Shown here one piece after another: positions 49,922 through 57,714 of a stretch of 64,000 bases of DNA. The translations under genes were made by a program, and so were the position numbers. The stretch's first letter is position 1; each line of letters starts with the position of its first letter. The stretch is from assembly GCA_012514535.1 (NCBI GenBank), contig JAAZAA010000060.1, positions 45,285-109,284 on the forward strand. Reading direction: 5' to 3'. The DNA comes from Myxococcales bacterium (GTDB taxonomy: Bacteria; Myxococcota_A; Polyangia; Polyangiales; Polyangiaceae). Below the pieces are notes generated by a model. That model saw nothing but the letters and a program-made list of their open reading frames with translations, was not told the origin of the DNA and searched no databases.

Positions 49922-51859
49922 ATGCCTCCTAGTCCGCAAACTCGACTCCTCGACAAGATGGTGGCCGACGGCCTCATCACCCCCGAGCAGCGCGAAGCGA
50001 CGCTGAACCACCTCCAAGCCTTCGGCGACCGGCTCGAGGAGGCGTTACTCGACACGAACGCGGTCACGGAGGCCAACCTGCTCAAGTACCTGGCGGGGGT
50101 CTACCGCACGCGCTTCGTGTCGACGGAGAAGCTGGCAAAGGCGGACATCGACCGGCTCACCCTGGACAAGGTCCCCAAGAAGCTGGCCGTGCAGCACGGC
50201 GTCTTCCCGGTCCTGTTCGACGGGAAGGGGAGCGTGCTCAGCGTGGTCACGGCCGATCCCCACAACGCGGTCGCCCTCGACGAGATCAAGCTGGTGTCGG
50301 CGGTGCGGGAGGTGCGCGCCTTCGTGGCTCGTCCGCGGGCGGTCAAGGCGGCCATCGCCAAGGCATACAGCGGGGACATCCACGCCTTCGCGACCCTCGA
50401 CAGAGACGCTCACCAGCAGTTCACGTCGATGCTCGACGTCTACGAGCGCAACCTCGTGACGGACGAGAGCATGGCGGTGGCGCTCGCCCGCGAGGATCGC
50501 CCCCGAGAGCGGGTGCTGAGCGCCGAGGAGCTGGAAGGCGGCGCGAGCGGGACGGCCCGCGGCGTCCACGACAAGGGCTACCTGGAGACCTTGAACGTCT
50601 TGGTGAGCCTCCTCGAGAACTCACGGCAGGATCTCCGCGGTCACTCCGCGCAGGTGGCGCGCCTCATCCGCCAGCTCGGCGAGCGCATCGGCCTGACGGA
50701 GAGCCAGCTCAGCTGCCTGCAGATCGCAGGATACATCCACGACCTCGGCAAGGCCGGTGCGTATCATCTGACGTCCCTCAACGTCGCGGAGTACGAGGGG
50801 CACGCCGCCTCGGCGCGCAAGGTCGTCCACTCACCGGTCCAGCTCATGGAAGCAGTCGGCCTCCCTCACGAAGTCCGGCACGCGGTCGAGGGCATGTACG
50901 AGCGCTTCGACGGTGGGGGGCTGCCGAAGGGGGTGAAGGGCAAGGACATTCCTCTCGGGGCGCGGGTGTTGGCCATCGCGGACACCTACGCGGATCTCAC
51001 TCAGAACCCGAGAAATCCTTTCCGGAAGCGACTCACTCCGGTCGAGGCCTGCGACGTGCTCGAGCGCTACAAGGGCACGGTTTTGGATCCGAACCTGGTG
51101 GACCTGTTCCGGCACACGGTCTCCGGTGAGGACCTCAAGGCGCGCCTCCTCGCCAACCGCCACCGCGCGCTCATCATCGACTCCGATCCCGAGGAGATGA
51201 CGGTGCTCGAGCTGCGCATGGTGGAGCAGGGCTTCGAGGTGCAGCAGGCGCGCACGTCGGATCAGGCCCTCCAGCACCTCCGCTCCGGCGAGTTCGAGCT
51301 GGTGGTCAGCGAGCTCGACCTGAAGCCACACGATGGCTTCGCCCTGCTCGGGGAGGCGCGGAGGCACGCCTGGGGCCAGAAGCTCCCCTGGATCATCTTG
51401 ACCAGTCGGGCCGCCAGCGAAGACGCCCGTCGGGCCTTCGAGCTCGGCGCGTCGGATTTCATGGTCAAGCCCTTCTCGGCGGATCTCCTCGTCGCGAAGC
51501 TCAAGCAGGTGATGGAGCGCGAGGCCGTCGCGCGGGGCACGAGCCGCGGCGTGTCGGGTTCGCTCCTGGAGATGGGGCTGCCGGACATGGTCCAGGTCCT
51601 CTGGCACGGTCGTAAGACCGGCTCTCTGAAGATCCGCGCCGCCAAGGAGACCGGCGAGATCCATTTCGTGGAGGGCCAGATCTGGAACGCGATGTGGAGC
51701 ACTCTGCGCGGCGAAGAGGCCTTCTACGCCATGCTGGGCTTGACCGACGGGACGTTCTACCTCGATCCGAACTTCAAGGCGGACGCCCAGGTGATCCAGG
51801 CGAGCCCGGAGGCGCTGCTCCTCGAGGGCATGCGGCGCCTGGATGAGGGAGGGCGCTGA
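49922..51859 (+). CDS. MshEN / HD-GYP / receiver / PATAN multidomain protein
   Basis: A 645-residue soluble signalling protein with four domains: MshEN-like (about 5-150, RLLDKMVADGLITPEQREAT), HD-GYP (about 210-390), receiver (about 415-540) and DUF4388/PATAN (about 540-645). HD-GYP keeps HSAQV, IHDLGK, EGHA and IADTYAD, but the HHE and GYP motifs read MYERF and GGGLP, so phosphodiesterase activity is doubtful. In the receiver the phosphoacceptor Asp seems to be Glu (VVSELDLKPHDG), whereas the Ser and Lys are kept. MshEN domains often bind c-di-GMP, so the protein may be a c-di-GMP sensor instead of an enzyme. Alone on the strand; the start ATG is 49922. Confidence 0.88.
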   Translation: MPPSPQTRLLDKMVADGLITPEQREATLNHLQAFGDRLEEALLDTNAVTEANLLKYLAGVYRTRFVSTEKLAKADIDRLTLDKVPKKLAVQHGVFPVLFDGKGSVLSVVTADPHNAVALDEIKLVSAVREVRAFVARPRAVKAAIAKAYSGDIHAFATLDRDAHQQFTSMLDVYERNLVTDESMAVALAREDRPRERVLSAEELEGGASGTARGVHDKGYLETLNVLVSLLENSRQDLRGHSAQVARLIRQLGERIGLTESQLSCLQIAGYIHDLGKAGAYHLTSLNVAEYEGHAASARKVVHSPVQLMEAVGLPHEVRHAVEGMYERFDGGGLPKGVKGKDIPLGARVLAIADTYADLTQNPRNPFRKRLTPVEACDVLERYKGTVLDPNLVDLFRHTVSGEDLKARLLANRHRALIIDSDPEEMTVLELRMVEQGFEVQQARTSDQALQHLRSGEFELVVSELDLKPHDGFALLGEARRHAWGQKLPWIILTSRAASEDARRAFELGASDFMVKPFSADLLVAKLKQVMEREAVARGTSRGVSGSLLEMGLPDMVQVLWHGRKTGSLKIRAAKETGEIHFVEGQIWNAMWSTLRGEEAFYAMLGLTDGTFYLDPNFKADAQVIQASPEALLLEGMRRLDEGGR

Positions 51860-52705
51860 TCGGAGCGCCTGCGTCGGCGTGACGGCATCGAGCGAGGCCT
51901 CCTGGGCCTCCTGGTCGTTGGACGAAGGCCCGGCGAGTCGCTGCGCCGCGAGGAGCGAGGCCGTGGGCGGGCGCGTCGTCATCGCGTCGAGGCGGGGCGA
52001 TGTCGTGGAGGGGGCCTCGACGAGGCCTCGACGACGTCGTGCGCGAGCGGCTCGAGGCGTCGTCGGGACAGGGTGTAATGGGGGGTGTAATGGGGTGTGC
52101 GCGCAGGTGTGCTTTGGTCCGGCCGTCAGATCGAAGATTGGCTTTTCCGAGAATCGCCGATTGCCTGTGAGTTGAAGTGGTATTGTGTAGGTGGGGAGTG
52201 GGTGGGGCGCGGTCCGAGCTGTCGCGTAGTTGCTCCGACGACCGTTGCTGCCCCGTCGCTGCGCCGTCGAGCGCGCGTCAGTTCGCCTCCTCCGAGGCGC
52301 TCGTCGCCGCAACGTGCCGACGTGAAAGGCGATGGCGTCGTCGTCGGAGCGCCGCACCAGCCCGCGAAGCCGTGACGGCACGTGTGGCGGCAGGGGCTAT
52401 GTCATTGGAATGGGCTGTTCGTGCTGGAAGGTGCGCAACGCGTGGCCGGAGCGGTGTGGCCGGGAGAAGCGCGGCAGGGACGCGCACCGCTGTAGGGAGG
52501 CAGCGACAGGGCGTGGAACGACGGCGCGGAGCGATGGGGCCTGCGTCGTTGGAATGGGCTGTTCGTGCTGAAAGGTGCGCCCGGCGCGAGGCCGGGAGGC
52601 GGCGCCAGGAGGTAAGCGATCGACAACCGAGATAAGAGGAATGATTATCGCTCGAGGGATGCTCGTGCTAACCTTGATGGAGCAGCACCCCCGGGTTCGT
52701 TCAGA
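51860..52705. other. Non-coding stretch with a duplicated 32-bp element
   Basis: About 850 bp with no credible gene. It contains a 32-bp direct repeat (see separate entry), a patch of low GC (52130-52200, TTGAAGTGGTATTGTG), and a small inverted repeat (GATAA...TTATC) at about 52634-52652 upstream of the next gene. The low-GC patch stands out against the surroundings and may hold a promoter or RNA gene. Confidence 0.5.
52405..52580. repeat. Two 32-bp direct repeats 144 bp apart
   Basis: TTGGAATGGGCTGTTCGTGC is followed by TGGAAGGTGCGC in the first copy (52405-52436) and TGAAAGGTGCGC in the second (52549-52580); 31 of 32 positions agree. No terminal inverted repeats, so not an insertion sequence. 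Function unknown. Confidence 0.75.
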
Positions 52706-53293
52706 ATGCCGCCACCACCCCTCCTCGGATACAATAACAACGTCCGCCACAGGGGCCGGGTCTTCCATATTCAGACGGAGGACTCGGGCGTTGCGAACCC
52801 GCGCATCATGACCCACCTGTTCGCGGATGGGGGGCGCATCGTCAAATCGACGCGGACCGACTACTCGGAGCACCTGGGGCGGCCCGATCTCGTGGACACC
52901 GTGCGCGCGCTCATGAAGGAGCAGCACAAGGCGATGTTCGTGGCGCTGCGTGGGGGCGAGCTCGACGACTTGATCGGTTTCGAACCCGAGGCCCCTCCGC
53001 CGAGCCTCGTGGGTGCCGCCGTGCGCGCGGTCGCCGGCTCGTTGACGCCGAGCTCGCGACCCGCCCCGGCGACGAGCAAGAGTCAGCGCCCGAAGAACAA
53101 TCCCGAGAGCGGCGTGCAGCGGGCGGCGGACACGGAGAGCCGGAGCTATGCCGCACCCCGGCCCGCGACCATTTTCGCGGACGCCCCCGTGCGGGACAGC
53201 CTCTTCGGAGAGACGGTGATGGAGAAGTCCCTCGACGAGACCATCCTCAGCTACCTCTCCGAGGACGCTGAAGCGGCGGACGGCAGCCGCTGA
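52706..53293 (+). CDS. Myxobacterial conserved protein of unknown function
   Basis: A 195-residue protein. The first 95 residues contain the conserved core (YNNNVRHRGRVFHIQTEDSG, then IMTHLFADGGRIVKSTRTDYSEH and MKEQHKAMFVALRGG). I remember near-identical cores in several myxobacterial genomes, always unassigned. The remainder is a disordered, Ser/Pro/Ala-rich tail ending in a short helical segment (DETILSYLSEDAEAAD). No signal peptide. The core's F-H-I-Q-T and basic patches suggest a small domain binding a partner or nucleic acid, but that is speculation. Upstream is the repeat-containing gap; downstream is tRNA-Cys. Confidence 0.75.
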   Translation: MPPPPLLGYNNNVRHRGRVFHIQTEDSGVANPRIMTHLFADGGRIVKSTRTDYSEHLGRPDLVDTVRALMKEQHKAMFVALRGGELDDLIGFEPEAPPPSLVGAAVRAVAGSLTPSSRPAPATSKSQRPKNNPESGVQRAADTESRSYAAPRPATIFADAPVRDSLFGETVMEKSLDETILSYLSEDAEAADGSR

Positions 53294-53580
53294 GGAGGCA
53301 AGAGGAGCCGAGGGGGTACCATCGGCACCGGGCCGGACCGGGGATGCCCGTGTCAGGCCTGCTGCTGGGATGCAGCGGTCTCCACTCCGGCGCTGCTCGG
53401 CGGTGGTCGCCGGCGGGGCGCGGGGCGCGGGGCGCAGAGCAGAGCAGAGCAGAGCGGAGTTCATCCGCTTGATTCTGGCGTCGGCGCATGGCAACGTCCC
53501 GGCCCGCTCCGCAGGCCTCACGGCTCCCGCAGGGCGGGCCCGGGGCTGCCCACGCGGGACGGTCTCGGTCGAGTTCTCAG

Positions 53581-53652
53581 GGCGAGGTAGCCAAGTGGTT
53601 AGGCAACGGTTTGCAAAACCGTCACACGCCGGTTCGAATCCGGTCCTCGCCT
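53581..53652 (+). tRNA. tRNA-Cys (GCA)
   Basis: Complete cloverleaf: acceptor stem GGCGAGG/CCTCGCC, anticodon stem around TTGCAAA with anticodon GCA, T-arm CGGTTCGAATCCG, and discriminator T as expected for tRNA-Cys. CCA is not encoded. It lacks flanking tRNAs and is followed by a terminator 20 nt later. Confidence 0.97.
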
Positions 53653-53668
53653 CCCAGAAAGCAGCTGA

Positions 53669-53743: not shown

Positions 53744-54901
53744 TCACCAGCTCGGTGCGACGAAGCGGCGGTCGGGGCGGCCGAAGCGGTAGCCTTGGAG
53801 GAGGTCACAGCCGACGTCGAGGAGGAGGTCGCGCTCCTGTGTGGTCTCGACGCCCTCGGCGAGGACGCAGTAGCCGAGGTCCTGGCACACCTCCGTCAGG
53901 GAGCGGATGAGGCGACGTTTGACGCCGCTCTTGTCGGCGTCGTGCACGAGCGACATGTCGATCTTCACCACGTCGGGTTCGAGCTGGATGAAGCTCGACA
54001 ATCCCGCATAACCAGCGCCTAGGTCGTCGATGGCGATGCGACATCCGGTCTCTCGCAGCGAGGCGATCTTGGTGCGGGCGGCGGGGACCGAGTCCAGCGA
54101 GGCGCGCTCGGTCACCTCGAGGACGAGGCGCCCCAGACGATCGGGGCACTCCAGGAGATCGTCGAGCAGCGCGTCATCCGAGAGGTCGTGGGGGTGGAGG
54201 TTCAGGAACAACGTCCAGTCCTGATCCTCCGCGAGCGCCGCGAGGGCGAGGCGCCGCGCCCGGTGGCTCAAGTCGCCGAGGCGGCCCAGACGCTCCGCCG
54301 CGTCCAGCAGCGCCTCGGGTTGACGGAGCGACGGCTCGCCGCTGCGCATGAGGGCTTCGTAGCCGAACAGCCGCCCACTCCCCGCGGAGATGATGGGCTG
54401 GAAGGCAATCCACAGCTTCTCGAGAGCGCGCTCGAAGGCAGCCTCCAGAGCGGCGCGTGTGCCCTCTCCTGCGTTGGTGCCCAGTTCGTTCAGCGCGGCC
54501 CGCTTCGTCGCCGCCAAGCGACGGAGCTGCACCGCGCGACGGATCACGTCCAGGAACTCCTTGGTGGGGACCGGTTTGAGCAGGTACTGGAGGGCCCCGT
54601 AGTTGACTGCCTCGGTGGCGCTCTCGAGCGTCGGAGCCCCGGTGAACAGGATCACTGGCACGTCGAGATCGTGCTCCCGGATACGGCGGAGCAGCTGAAC
54701 CCCATCCATGTCCGGCATGCTGATGTCGGTCACGATGACGTCGAAGTCGACCTCCGAAGCACGGCGCAGCGCGTCCTTCGCGTTGCTGAACGCCTCGGCG
54801 ACGAACCCATGGGTGGCCAGCAGCTTCTGCAGCGCGGTCGTGATCGCGATCTCGTCATCCACGAGCAGGATGCGGCCCGACGATGGTGGAATCACGGACA
54901 C
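53744..54901 (-). CDS. Response regulator with EAL c-di-GMP phosphodiesterase domain
   Basis: A 385-residue two-domain protein: receiver (residues 9-125; ILLVDDEIAI, VIVTDISMPDMDG phosphoacceptor, FTGAP, LLKPV) and EAL (about 145-385). EAL signatures look catalytic: YEALMR (EAL), FLNLHP, LEVTE, IAIDDLGAGYAGLSS, VKIDMSL and AEGVET. Expected to hydrolyse c-di-GMP to pGpG under phosphorylation control. Start uncertain: GTG at 54901 is adjacent to the SD, while GTG at 54895 lies 6 nt from GGGAGG. Sits close to the MshEN protein, suggesting a c-di-GMP theme. Confidence 0.92.
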   Translation of the reverse strand: MSVIPPSSGRILLVDDEIAITTALQKLLATHGFVAEAFSNAKDALRRASEVDFDVIVTDISMPDMDGVQLLRRIREHDLDVPVILFTGAPTLESATEAVNYGALQYLLKPVPTKEFLDVIRRAVQLRRLAATKRAALNELGTNAGEGTRAALEAAFERALEKLWIAFQPIISAGSGRLFGYEALMRSGEPSLRQPEALLDAAERLGRLGDLSHRARRLALAALAEDQDWTLFLNLHPHDLSDDALLDDLLECPDRLGRLVLEVTERASLDSVPAARTKIASLRETGCRIAIDDLGAGYAGLSSFIQLEPDVVKIDMSLVHDADKSGVKRRLIRSLTEVCQDLGYCVLAEGVETTQERDLLLDVGCDLLQGYRFGRPDRRFVAPSW

Positions 54902-56281: not shown

Positions 56282-57229
56282 TCAGACGTCGTCGCCCCGG
56301 AGGCTCTCGGGCTCCCCCGGATCGAAGGTCTCGACTCCCCGCGGCACGTCCTCGGGAGCGTTCGCGGCCAGGGTTCCGCTCTCGCCGATGCCGCTTTCGC
56401 CGCCACCTTCGCTGGTGTGTTCGGCTTCGGTCTGGCTGCTCGCCTCTGCCTTGGCGCTGCGGAGAGCCTCCGAGCCGATGGCCTTGGCCTTGTCCGTGGC
56501 CTCATGGGCAGCGTGGCGAGCTTGCTCCTTGAGCTCACGGCCCTTCGTCCCGAGCAGCTGGTGCTCCTTGCGGGACATCGGCGCCATGGCCGCGACCGCG
56601 GCGCCCAGAGCCAGACCCAGGCCCGCCAGGATGAGCGGCTGCTCGTGGACGAGGTCACGCCCCCGCTCTCCGGCCTGGCGCGCTCGCGCGCCCATGTGCC
56701 GCCACTCTTCCTGCGTGTAGCTGCCCATCTCTCGGGCTTTGGTCCGCGTCGCCTGCAGCTTGCCGCGGACGTTCTCGCCGAGGTCGTGGGCTCCGGACCG
56801 GAGCTTCCGGGCGCTCCCTTGCGCACCCTCCTTGAGGCTGCGCATTCGCTCGGCTCCCTCGTGCGCCATGCTCCGGGCGCGAGCGCCCTTCTCCGAGCCT
56901 TCGGTCGACTCGACCTCGATGCGATGGCTCTCCGGGTGGCGCTGTCGCGAGTCCGCGTAAATCAGGTACCCGAAGCTCGCGCCGATGAGGACGACGGGGA
57001 GGGGATTTTCCTCGACCGTACGACCCAAGTTCTTGAAGAAGCGCCCGGCGCCGCCCCCGCCCCGCAGCGACTCCCAGACTTGGTGCAATAGCTGACCTGG
57101 TTGCAGTTGGCTGCCGAGCGCCTGCAGCGTGCCCTGGATCTCACCGCGGATTTCCCGGAGATCCGACTGGATCTCCTGCGAGCTGCGTCGAGCCACCGCG
57201 TTGCCGTTCGTGTACTGCTCGTACGTCAT
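56282..57229 (-). CDS. DUF3618-type membrane protein
   Basis: A 315-residue protein. N-terminal helical part (YTNGNAVARRSSQEIQSDLREIRGEIQGTLQALGSQLQ) typical of DUF3618, one TM helix (NPLPVVLIGASFGYLIYA), a long charged, coiled helical region (KGARARSMAHEGAERMRSLKEG... with repeated Ala/Glu/Lys), a second TM (EQPLILAGLGLALGAAVAAMAP) and an acidic tail. The ATG at 57229 has a strong GGGGAGG and overlaps the preceding stop (ATGA). Last of three coupled genes; these families are known together in stress- or nutrient-deprivation-induced envelope operons. Confidence 0.82.
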   Translation of the reverse strand: MTYEQYTNGNAVARRSSQEIQSDLREIRGEIQGTLQALGSQLQPGQLLHQVWESLRGGGGAGRFFKNLGRTVEENPLPVVLIGASFGYLIYADSRQRHPESHRIEVESTEGSEKGARARSMAHEGAERMRSLKEGAQGSARKLRSGAHDLGENVRGKLQATRTKAREMGSYTQEEWRHMGARARQAGERGRDLVHEQPLILAGLGLALGAAVAAMAPMSRKEHQLLGTKGRELKEQARHAAHEATDKAKAIGSEALRSAKAEASSQTEAEHTSEGGGESGIGESGTLAANAPEDVPRGVETFDPGEPESLRGDDV

Positions 57230-57714
57230 GAGTCCTCCCCCCATGATGCCAGCCGTTGCTTGATGAGGCGGCCGTCGGCCTTCGCTTCATCGATCGCGCG
57301 GTTCGGCTTCAAGTTCTGTGGTTCGACGCGCTTCTTGCCCGCGGAGACCATCACCCCACCAATGATCGCCGCGATGGCGCCGACGACGAGGAACGCAAGC
57401 CAAGTGTCCATCACGAGGCTCAGCGCCAGCGCCGCCGCGGAGAAGAGGAGGATGATTCCCGTCAGCAGCACCACCGTGCCGCCCACCATGGACGCGATGC
57501 CGCGCTCCGCCTGGGCGATCTTCTCGGACATCTCCGCGCGCAGCAGCTGCCCTTCCGCTCTCACGAGGGCTTGCGACTCGCGCCCGAGGTCGCGAAGCAG
57601 CGTCATCACTGGCCAATCGCCCCGCCTCTCGGAGCTGATGCGTTCCTCGGCGCCCGCCGCTTCCCGGCGCCAATCCCTTGCCTCAGTTTGTGGTTCCACC
57701 TTCTCCCCCCTCAC
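57226..57714 (-). CDS. Phage-holin-superfamily/YqjE-like membrane protein
   Basis: A 162-residue protein with an amphipathic N-terminal helix (TLLRDLGRESQALVRAEGQLLRAEMSEKIAQAERGI) and two TM helices (VGGTVVLLTGIILLFSAAALALSLV and TWLAFLVVGAIAAIIGGVMVSAG), then a basic tail. This is the DUF1469/YqjE ('phage holin') family; despite the name, nothing here indicates prophage. GTG start at 57714 overlaps the upstream stop (GTGA), and the stop overlaps the DUF3618 start. Middle gene of the operon. Confidence 0.85.
   Translation of the reverse strand: MRGEKVEPQTEARDWRREAAGAEERISSERRGDWPVMTLLRDLGRESQALVRAEGQLLRAEMSEKIAQAERGIASMVGGTVVLLTGIILLFSAAALALSLVMDTWLAFLVVGAIAAIIGGVMVSAGKKRVEPQNLKPNRAIDEAKADGRLIKQRLASWGEDS

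Follow-up and report, generated by a model that had tools for sequence, protein, structure and literature searches.

A four-domain Polyangiales protein with replaced residues at three switch sites: possibly a hard-wired adaptor for type IV pili and polarity

What does a signalling protein do when the residues that normally make its domains switch have been exchanged for others? The question is raised by a gene at 49922-51859 on the forward strand of the window (the whole 64,000-nucleotide stretch of DNA that was analysed). The open frame, the Pfam matches and the homologues indicate a real ORF, which starts with ATG and encodes 645 amino acids in the order MshEN, HD-GYP-like, receiver and DUF4388 (PATAN). 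These are the four domains named in an earlier, sequence-only reading of the locus, and the Pfam search that it called for found each of them. The MshEN domain (residues 8-152; 49943-50377, forward strand) is matched over residues 71-152 (46.5 bits, cut-off 23.1) and the HD-GYP-like domain (residues 218-405; 50573-51136, forward strand) is matched by HD_5 over residues 226-392 (91.8 bits). The receiver (residues 415-533; 51164-51520, forward strand) has a CheY-like fold and a Response_reg match over residues 417-527 (63.3 bits). The PATAN domain (residues 545-642; 51554-51847, forward strand), matched by DUF4388 (PF14332) over the same residues (79.3 bits, cut-off 25), is the best conserved of the four, with the lowest mean column entropy among aligned homologues. 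Against the PDB, a family profile matches PilB and PilF (MshEN), PleD and CheY-like receivers, and HD-GYP structures. In a full-length AlphaFold model the individual domains are confident (mean pLDDT 88), whereas the pTM of 0.43 means that the model gives no reliable domain arrangement or interdomain contacts. Literature searches found no paper on an architecture that has MshEN, HD-GYP and PATAN together, and a search for DUF4388 returned one unrelated paper.

The family is widespread in Polyangiales, the order to which the host belongs. Homologues (E<=1e-40) are present in 163 of the 184 sampled Polyangiales genomes (98 of the 112 good ones), mostly at one per genome. In a phylum-wide sample they occur in 44/284 genomes, nearly all of them in Polyangiales with few outside the order. 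Named relatives of the host are Polyangiaceae, Sorangiineae, Sorangium and Polyangium. The sequence-only reading had missed this conservation, as it had the neighbouring gene described below. Some genomes also carry second, more divergent family copies (L140, L141 and L164), and these too have Glu at the phosphosite. Unless another total is given, the residue conservation reported here refers to an alignment of 118 distinct homologues.

At the phosphoacceptor site of the receiver ('ELVVSELDLKPHDGF') Glu464 occupies the expected Asp position (codon 51311-51313, forward strand). Residue 464 is Glu in 116 of the aligned homologues, with a single Asp and a single Asn as the exceptions, and the tree of the family needs two changes at this position. 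Replacement of the receiver Asp by Glu, as proposed earlier, is borne out, and the alignment places no conserved Asp at the phosphoacceptor. In the host genome, where 78 receivers were read out of 108 found, 75 have Asp and the sole Glu is that of the query protein. Set beside the near-fixation of Glu among the homologues, this argues that Glu464 is not there by chance. The acid pair D420/D422, T494 and K516 are all present in the query protein, and the full set (Glu, acid pair, Thr/Ser and Lys) is found in 99/118 homologues. Both Y-T coupling positions are kept in 97/118; among pseudo-receivers in general, 47% keep them (PMC12632262). The T+1 position is Ala or Gly in just 35/118 homologues, whereas 74% of true receivers have one of these small residues there; the difference is in keeping with a loss of phosphorylation. 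By its fold, its Pfam match and Glu464 the domain is an Asp-less receiver, or pseudo-receiver, and it is very probably not phosphorylated at residue 464 in the usual way. Glu is already the commonest natural substitute for the receiver Asp (26%; PMC4395418), and this type of exchange is therefore familiar. The new element is the fixation of Glu464 in this four-domain architecture. Does the Glu lock the receiver in an 'on' state, as was suggested? The intact Thr, Lys and Y-T coupling residues are those that a phosphomimetic needs (PMC12632262), and to that extent the suggestion stands, whereas the locking itself is something that we infer.

The HD-GYP-like domain has degenerated only in part. 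A model of this domain alone is confident (pLDDT 94.4, pTM 0.91), and Foldseek gave 12 matches at E<=0.001, every one an HD-GYP structure, with DvhD, PmGH, PA4781 and Bd1817 among them. Six of the eight metal ligand positions of PmGH (PMC4159591) are kept: D/E237 (E185 in PmGH), H241 (H189), H273-D274 (H221-D222), H294 (H250) and D/E354 (D305). The first His, H241, and the first residue of the HD diad (H273-D274; 50738-50743, forward strand) are found in 118/118 homologues and D274 in 116/118; the query itself has H241, H273-D274, K277, H294 and D354. However, the metal-binding His-His pair (PmGH H276-H277) is replaced by M325-Y326 (50894-50899, forward strand), with Met or Leu at 325 in 115/118 homologues and Tyr at 326 in 115/118, such that the motif HHExxDGxGYP reads MYERFDGGGLP in the query. 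The position of the putative general acid (PmGH D183) is Arg (R235) in 108/118. The GYP motif has become G-F/L-P (F/L334), and its tyrosine (the PmGH Y285 position) was not seen in any of the 118 aligned homologues. Changing any one of H276, H277 and D183 to alanine abolishes the activity of PmGH (PMC4159591). The segment from K277 to T284 is eight residues long in 113/118 homologues compared with 16 in PmGH; its near-invariant end 'YHLT' (Y281-H282-L283-T284; 50762-50773, forward strand), in which H282 is found in 117/118, stands for a loop that is eight residues longer in active HD-GYPs. Loop L10/11, in turn, is longer by two residues in 118/118. Hydrolysis of c-di-GMP is unlikely because the His-His pair and the general-acid Asp are replaced and the loop is shortened, and on these residues the domain is very probably not a c-di-GMP hydrolase. 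The HD-GYP domain had been called inactive-looking, a description that fits the replaced equivalents of H276, H277 and D183 but overstates a degeneration that is only partial, with six of eight ligand positions retained. H303 was considered as the equivalent of PmGH H250 and rejected, as H294 fits by the LTxxxxxxEYxxHR motif and by alignment with PA4781; HMMER against PmGH places it differently. Covariation of residue 325 (M/L) with residue 354 (D/E) was also set aside, since the 87 M-D and 20 L-E pairs trace back to an insufficient number of separate changes in the tree.

The MshEN domain had been introduced as one that often binds c-di-GMP. MshEN domains that bind c-di-GMP have two RLGxx...G...LxxxLxxQ motifs (PMC5013675). 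In this family the positions of motif Gly11, Gly40, Gln32 and Gln61 are lost in nearly all homologues, and the Gly40 position (Glu39 in the query) is Glu in 106/120. Of 14 key positions the query keeps 8 and most family members 4-6, which is not the pattern of a c-di-GMP-binding MshEN; other MshEN proteins of the host genome, PilB and two more, score 10, 12 and 12 of 14. Higher scores than in the family occur in relatives, with 9 in two distant ones outside the order and 12 in a remote one; the loss of the motif therefore probably took place in the lineage that led to this family. The glycines of the two RLG motifs are gone, as are the two ligand-contacting glutamines (PMC5013675), and on this ground c-di-GMP sensing by the domain was rejected. 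It follows that the HD pocket is all that is left to carry the earlier idea of a 'c-di-GMP-only sensor', and there the evidence is mixed, with some of the contacts seen in DvhD kept and others lost (PMC13090378).

What, then, might the HD pocket do? One answer is provided by DvhD of Desulfovibrio vulgaris (PDB 9RBZ), a degenerate HD-GYP c-di-GMP receptor. An HD domain of this type would bind c-di-GMP (or 3',3'-cGAMP), leave it uncleaved and make the protein a cyclic-dinucleotide-controlled switch, as the sequence-only reading supposed. The two domains share the HD-GYP fold, and c-di-GMP-bound DvhD gives the best Foldseek TM-score of the HD model (0.78). In DvhD, too, other residues stand in for the HH pair, the first of them Met (PMC13090378), and in both proteins an inability to hydrolyse c-di-GMP is predicted. 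The Arg and aromatic residues of loop L10/11 are present as well: R364 (R/K in 101/118), F/Y367 and R368 match DvhD R650, Y652 and R653 (PMC13090378), and, with contacts mapped by alignment, the hydrophobic M646 also has a counterpart. However, the contacts Y621 (here F/L), E668 (here Y383) and Y523 (here D237) are missing, K582 corresponds to R/K in most homologues but to Ala in the query, and the loop that forms the bridging site is shorter by the eight residues noted above. In addition, metal ligands that DvhD has lost are retained here, and a pure receptor would not need them. Taken together, this makes a DvhD-type receptor rather doubtful, and a cyclic dinucleotide a conceivable ligand that we would not presume. 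What if the retained residues still serve catalysis of a different kind? In this scenario H241, H273, D274 and D/E354, together with D/E237, H294 and perhaps H282, would bind one or two metals and the domain would hydrolyse some other phosphorylated substrate. The H...HD...D motif of mononuclear HD phosphatases is indeed intact (PMC8177086), H282, K277 and H294 are 93-99% conserved, and D354 varies to Glu alone, save for one Ala. Nevertheless, an altered enzyme is improbable: an Arg stands where the putative general acid should be, the fold matches are to HD-GYP proteins and not to mononuclear phosphatases, and the retained ligands may be structural only, as may also hold for the inactive Bd1817.

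A similar doubt applies to the receiver, where the Glu might be structural and not an on-switch, leaving a dimerisation or docking module whose state is independent of residue 464. A natural Glu does not always lock a receiver on: ChxR stays active when its Glu is exchanged for Asp or Ala (PMC4395418). Moreover, in CheY a Phe at K+2, the residue of the query, favours the inactive state, whereas Ala, Val, Ile or Leu, the residues found at this position in most homologues (88/118), favour the active state (PMC12632262). Two observations do not fit. Glu464 is conserved in 116/118 alongside T494, K516 and D420, where many pseudo-receivers drift, and when the Glu is lost in one genus (g2), T494 and D422 are lost with it. 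A purely structural Glu is therefore unlikely in our estimation. Finally, could the whole protein be a decayed signalling protein without function? Canonical residues are missing in three domains, as decay would predict. However, an open frame and 28 invariant columns are retained across 58 diverse homologues, and the great majority of sampled genomes in the order have the gene. Both contradict the loss of function, which we consider scarcely credible.

A link to cell polarity comes from the gene that the sequence-only reading overlooked. The next gene downstream (52706-53293, forward strand) encodes RomY, identified by its N-terminal domain (NCBIfam NF053858 RomY_Nterm, 111.6 bits, cut-off 50) and by its length of 195 amino acids, compared with 188 in M. 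xanthus (PMC9481161). In M. xanthus RomY is a co-GAP that stimulates the GAP activity of MglB on the polarity GTPase MglA (PMC9481161). RomY lies directly downstream on the same strand in 19/19 loci of the closest relatives, the window included, and at the locus L061 it still adjoins the gene although ribosomal genes do not flank it there any more. The gap to romY is 0-389 bp in relatives and 847 bp in the window, where a 44-nt direct repeat (52393-52436 and 52537-52580, 89% identical) lies in the intergenic region (51860-52705). The adjacency is confined to one clade of about 19 loci. The gene lies elsewhere in Sorangium, Polyangium and others, and in the former two it is downstream of a gene that by its sequence looks rpoC-like. 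RomY-like genes were found in 55/57 sampled genomes of the order, and many genomes that lack the family have RomY. The host genome also encodes a second protein with the RomY N-terminal domain (L269; G000:C86:11100-11345) in an open frame of 477 amino acids, and long proteins of this kind occur in many relatives. Between romY and a REC-EAL gene is a tRNA-Cys (gca) at 53580-53656 on the forward strand, the sole tRNA that ARAGORN finds in the window. Beyond it is the REC-EAL gene (53744-54901, reverse strand) to which attention had been drawn as a catalytically complete enzyme 2 kb away. Its receiver Asp is intact and its EAL motif set does look complete, with PvrR as the best named model (124.7 bits, far under the cut-off of 580). 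However, its place beside the family gene is not conserved, not even among the nearest relatives, and it was rejected as a functional partner. Further along, a 320-amino-acid protein (56282-57244, reverse strand) with a weak DUF3618 match (22.1 bits, below the cut-off of 24.9) is encoded near a glycosyltransferase-like ORF.

Gene content points in the direction of pili. PilB was called with an equivalog model (E<=1e-180) and counted by hand in the order's 112 good genomes. It is missing in 5/14 genomes without the family compared with 2/98 with it (Fisher p 0.0003), and these two exceptions are fragmented assemblies. Three of the five belong to one genus, which reduces the association to about three independent losses of PilB. 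Genus g2 is a different case, with three genomes that lack RomY yet have PilB. Its two homologues that were read (L158 and L159) have Asp or Asn at residue 464 and are the only two of the 118 without Glu, in what counts as a single event. A connection between the loss of RomY and the loss of Glu is suggestive, but it concerns one clade, and a genome without RomY (G001, 86% complete) keeps the Glu.

How might these pieces work together? The Glu receiver, the HD domain without essential catalytic residues and the adjacency of RomY in close relatives suggest that the protein is probably a wired-on adaptor and not an enzyme. Its precise description as a phosphorylation-independent signalling adaptor for type IV pili or polarity, as opposed to a c-di-GMP turnover enzyme, is tentative and falls a little short of an even chance. 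Glu464 would contact T494 and K516 and hold the receiver in an on-like state, in which case no kinase would be needed. The input, if there is one, might be a nucleotide, perhaps a cyclic dinucleotide, that the HD pocket binds without hydrolysis; the pocket could be ligand-binding or structural. The output would run through PATAN, possibly with a contribution of the PilB-like MshEN domain, and would reach either the motor of the type IV pilus or the MglA/MglB/RomY polarity module. That the output goes to pilus or polarity at all is evenly balanced, and membership in the polarity module is a conjecture from gene adjacency in one clade. Several precedents favour the adaptor reading. In cyanobacteria, PATAN response regulators act on the type IV pilus, and in Synechocystis PixE does so by binding the pilus motor PilB1 (primary work reviewed in PMC7690835). 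FrzS is an example of the pseudo-receivers that take part in the control of pili in myxobacteria (PMC11580455). M. xanthus needs c-di-GMP to position its polarity proteins correctly, and how c-di-GMP does this is not yet known (PMC11255338).

None of the known systems has the same composition. DvhD is a dCache-PAS-HD-GYP membrane receptor that has lost the HD diad (SQ), whereas the present family keeps the diad and most ligands in an HD domain fused to MshEN, receiver and PATAN. Bd1817, an unconventional HD-GYP of Bdellovibrio, is likewise without the GYP tyrosine and is inactive, as is predicted for the query, but it keeps a binuclear iron site whereas the HH pair is gone here. A receiver and an HD-GYP domain are also joined in the REC-HD-GYP phosphodiesterases (RpfG type; NosR family NF053512), and the NosR model matches the query HD domain with 128.6 bits, under its cut-off of 400. 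Those phosphodiesterases have the receiver Asp and a complete catalytic set, and in them REC precedes HD-GYP. The cyanobacterial PATAN-CheY regulators PixE, PixG and LsiR join PATAN to a receiver without an HD or MshEN domain, and they are not described as Glu pseudo-receivers in the text consulted. FrzS of Myxococcus xanthus is a pilus and polarity regulator with a pseudo-receiver, but it has a coiled coil in place of HD, MshEN and PATAN domains. The MshEN domains of MshE and PilB have the same fold as the N-terminal domain of the query, which lacks the ATPase and the c-di-GMP contact residues.

There is thus precedent for each separate part. No description of the conserved combination, of the triple replacement of switch sites or of the RomY link was found in the literature searched. 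In its fullest form the proposal is of an order-wide Polyangiales regulator in which different but conserved residues stand at all three switch sites (MshEN motif, HD-GYP centre and receiver Asp). It would be a hard-wired adaptor linking a remodelled HD pocket with type IV pili and with the MglA/RomY polarity machinery; as a whole this is speculative and would be a less than likely outcome. The family may be informative in several ways. Pseudo-receivers are common, and how they work has been described as a mystery (PMC12632262). A Glu pseudo-receiver that is conserved across an order, with its pocket otherwise intact, its architecture fixed and its cellular context likely, would offer a clean test of the natural-phosphomimetic idea. 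The family would also add a pseudo-HD-GYP domain with a conserved, remodelled pocket to the class that includes DvhD, a receptor whose structure was solved recently. Lastly, it may provide a candidate partner of RomY in a myxobacterial branch whose polarity and motility have apparently received little study.
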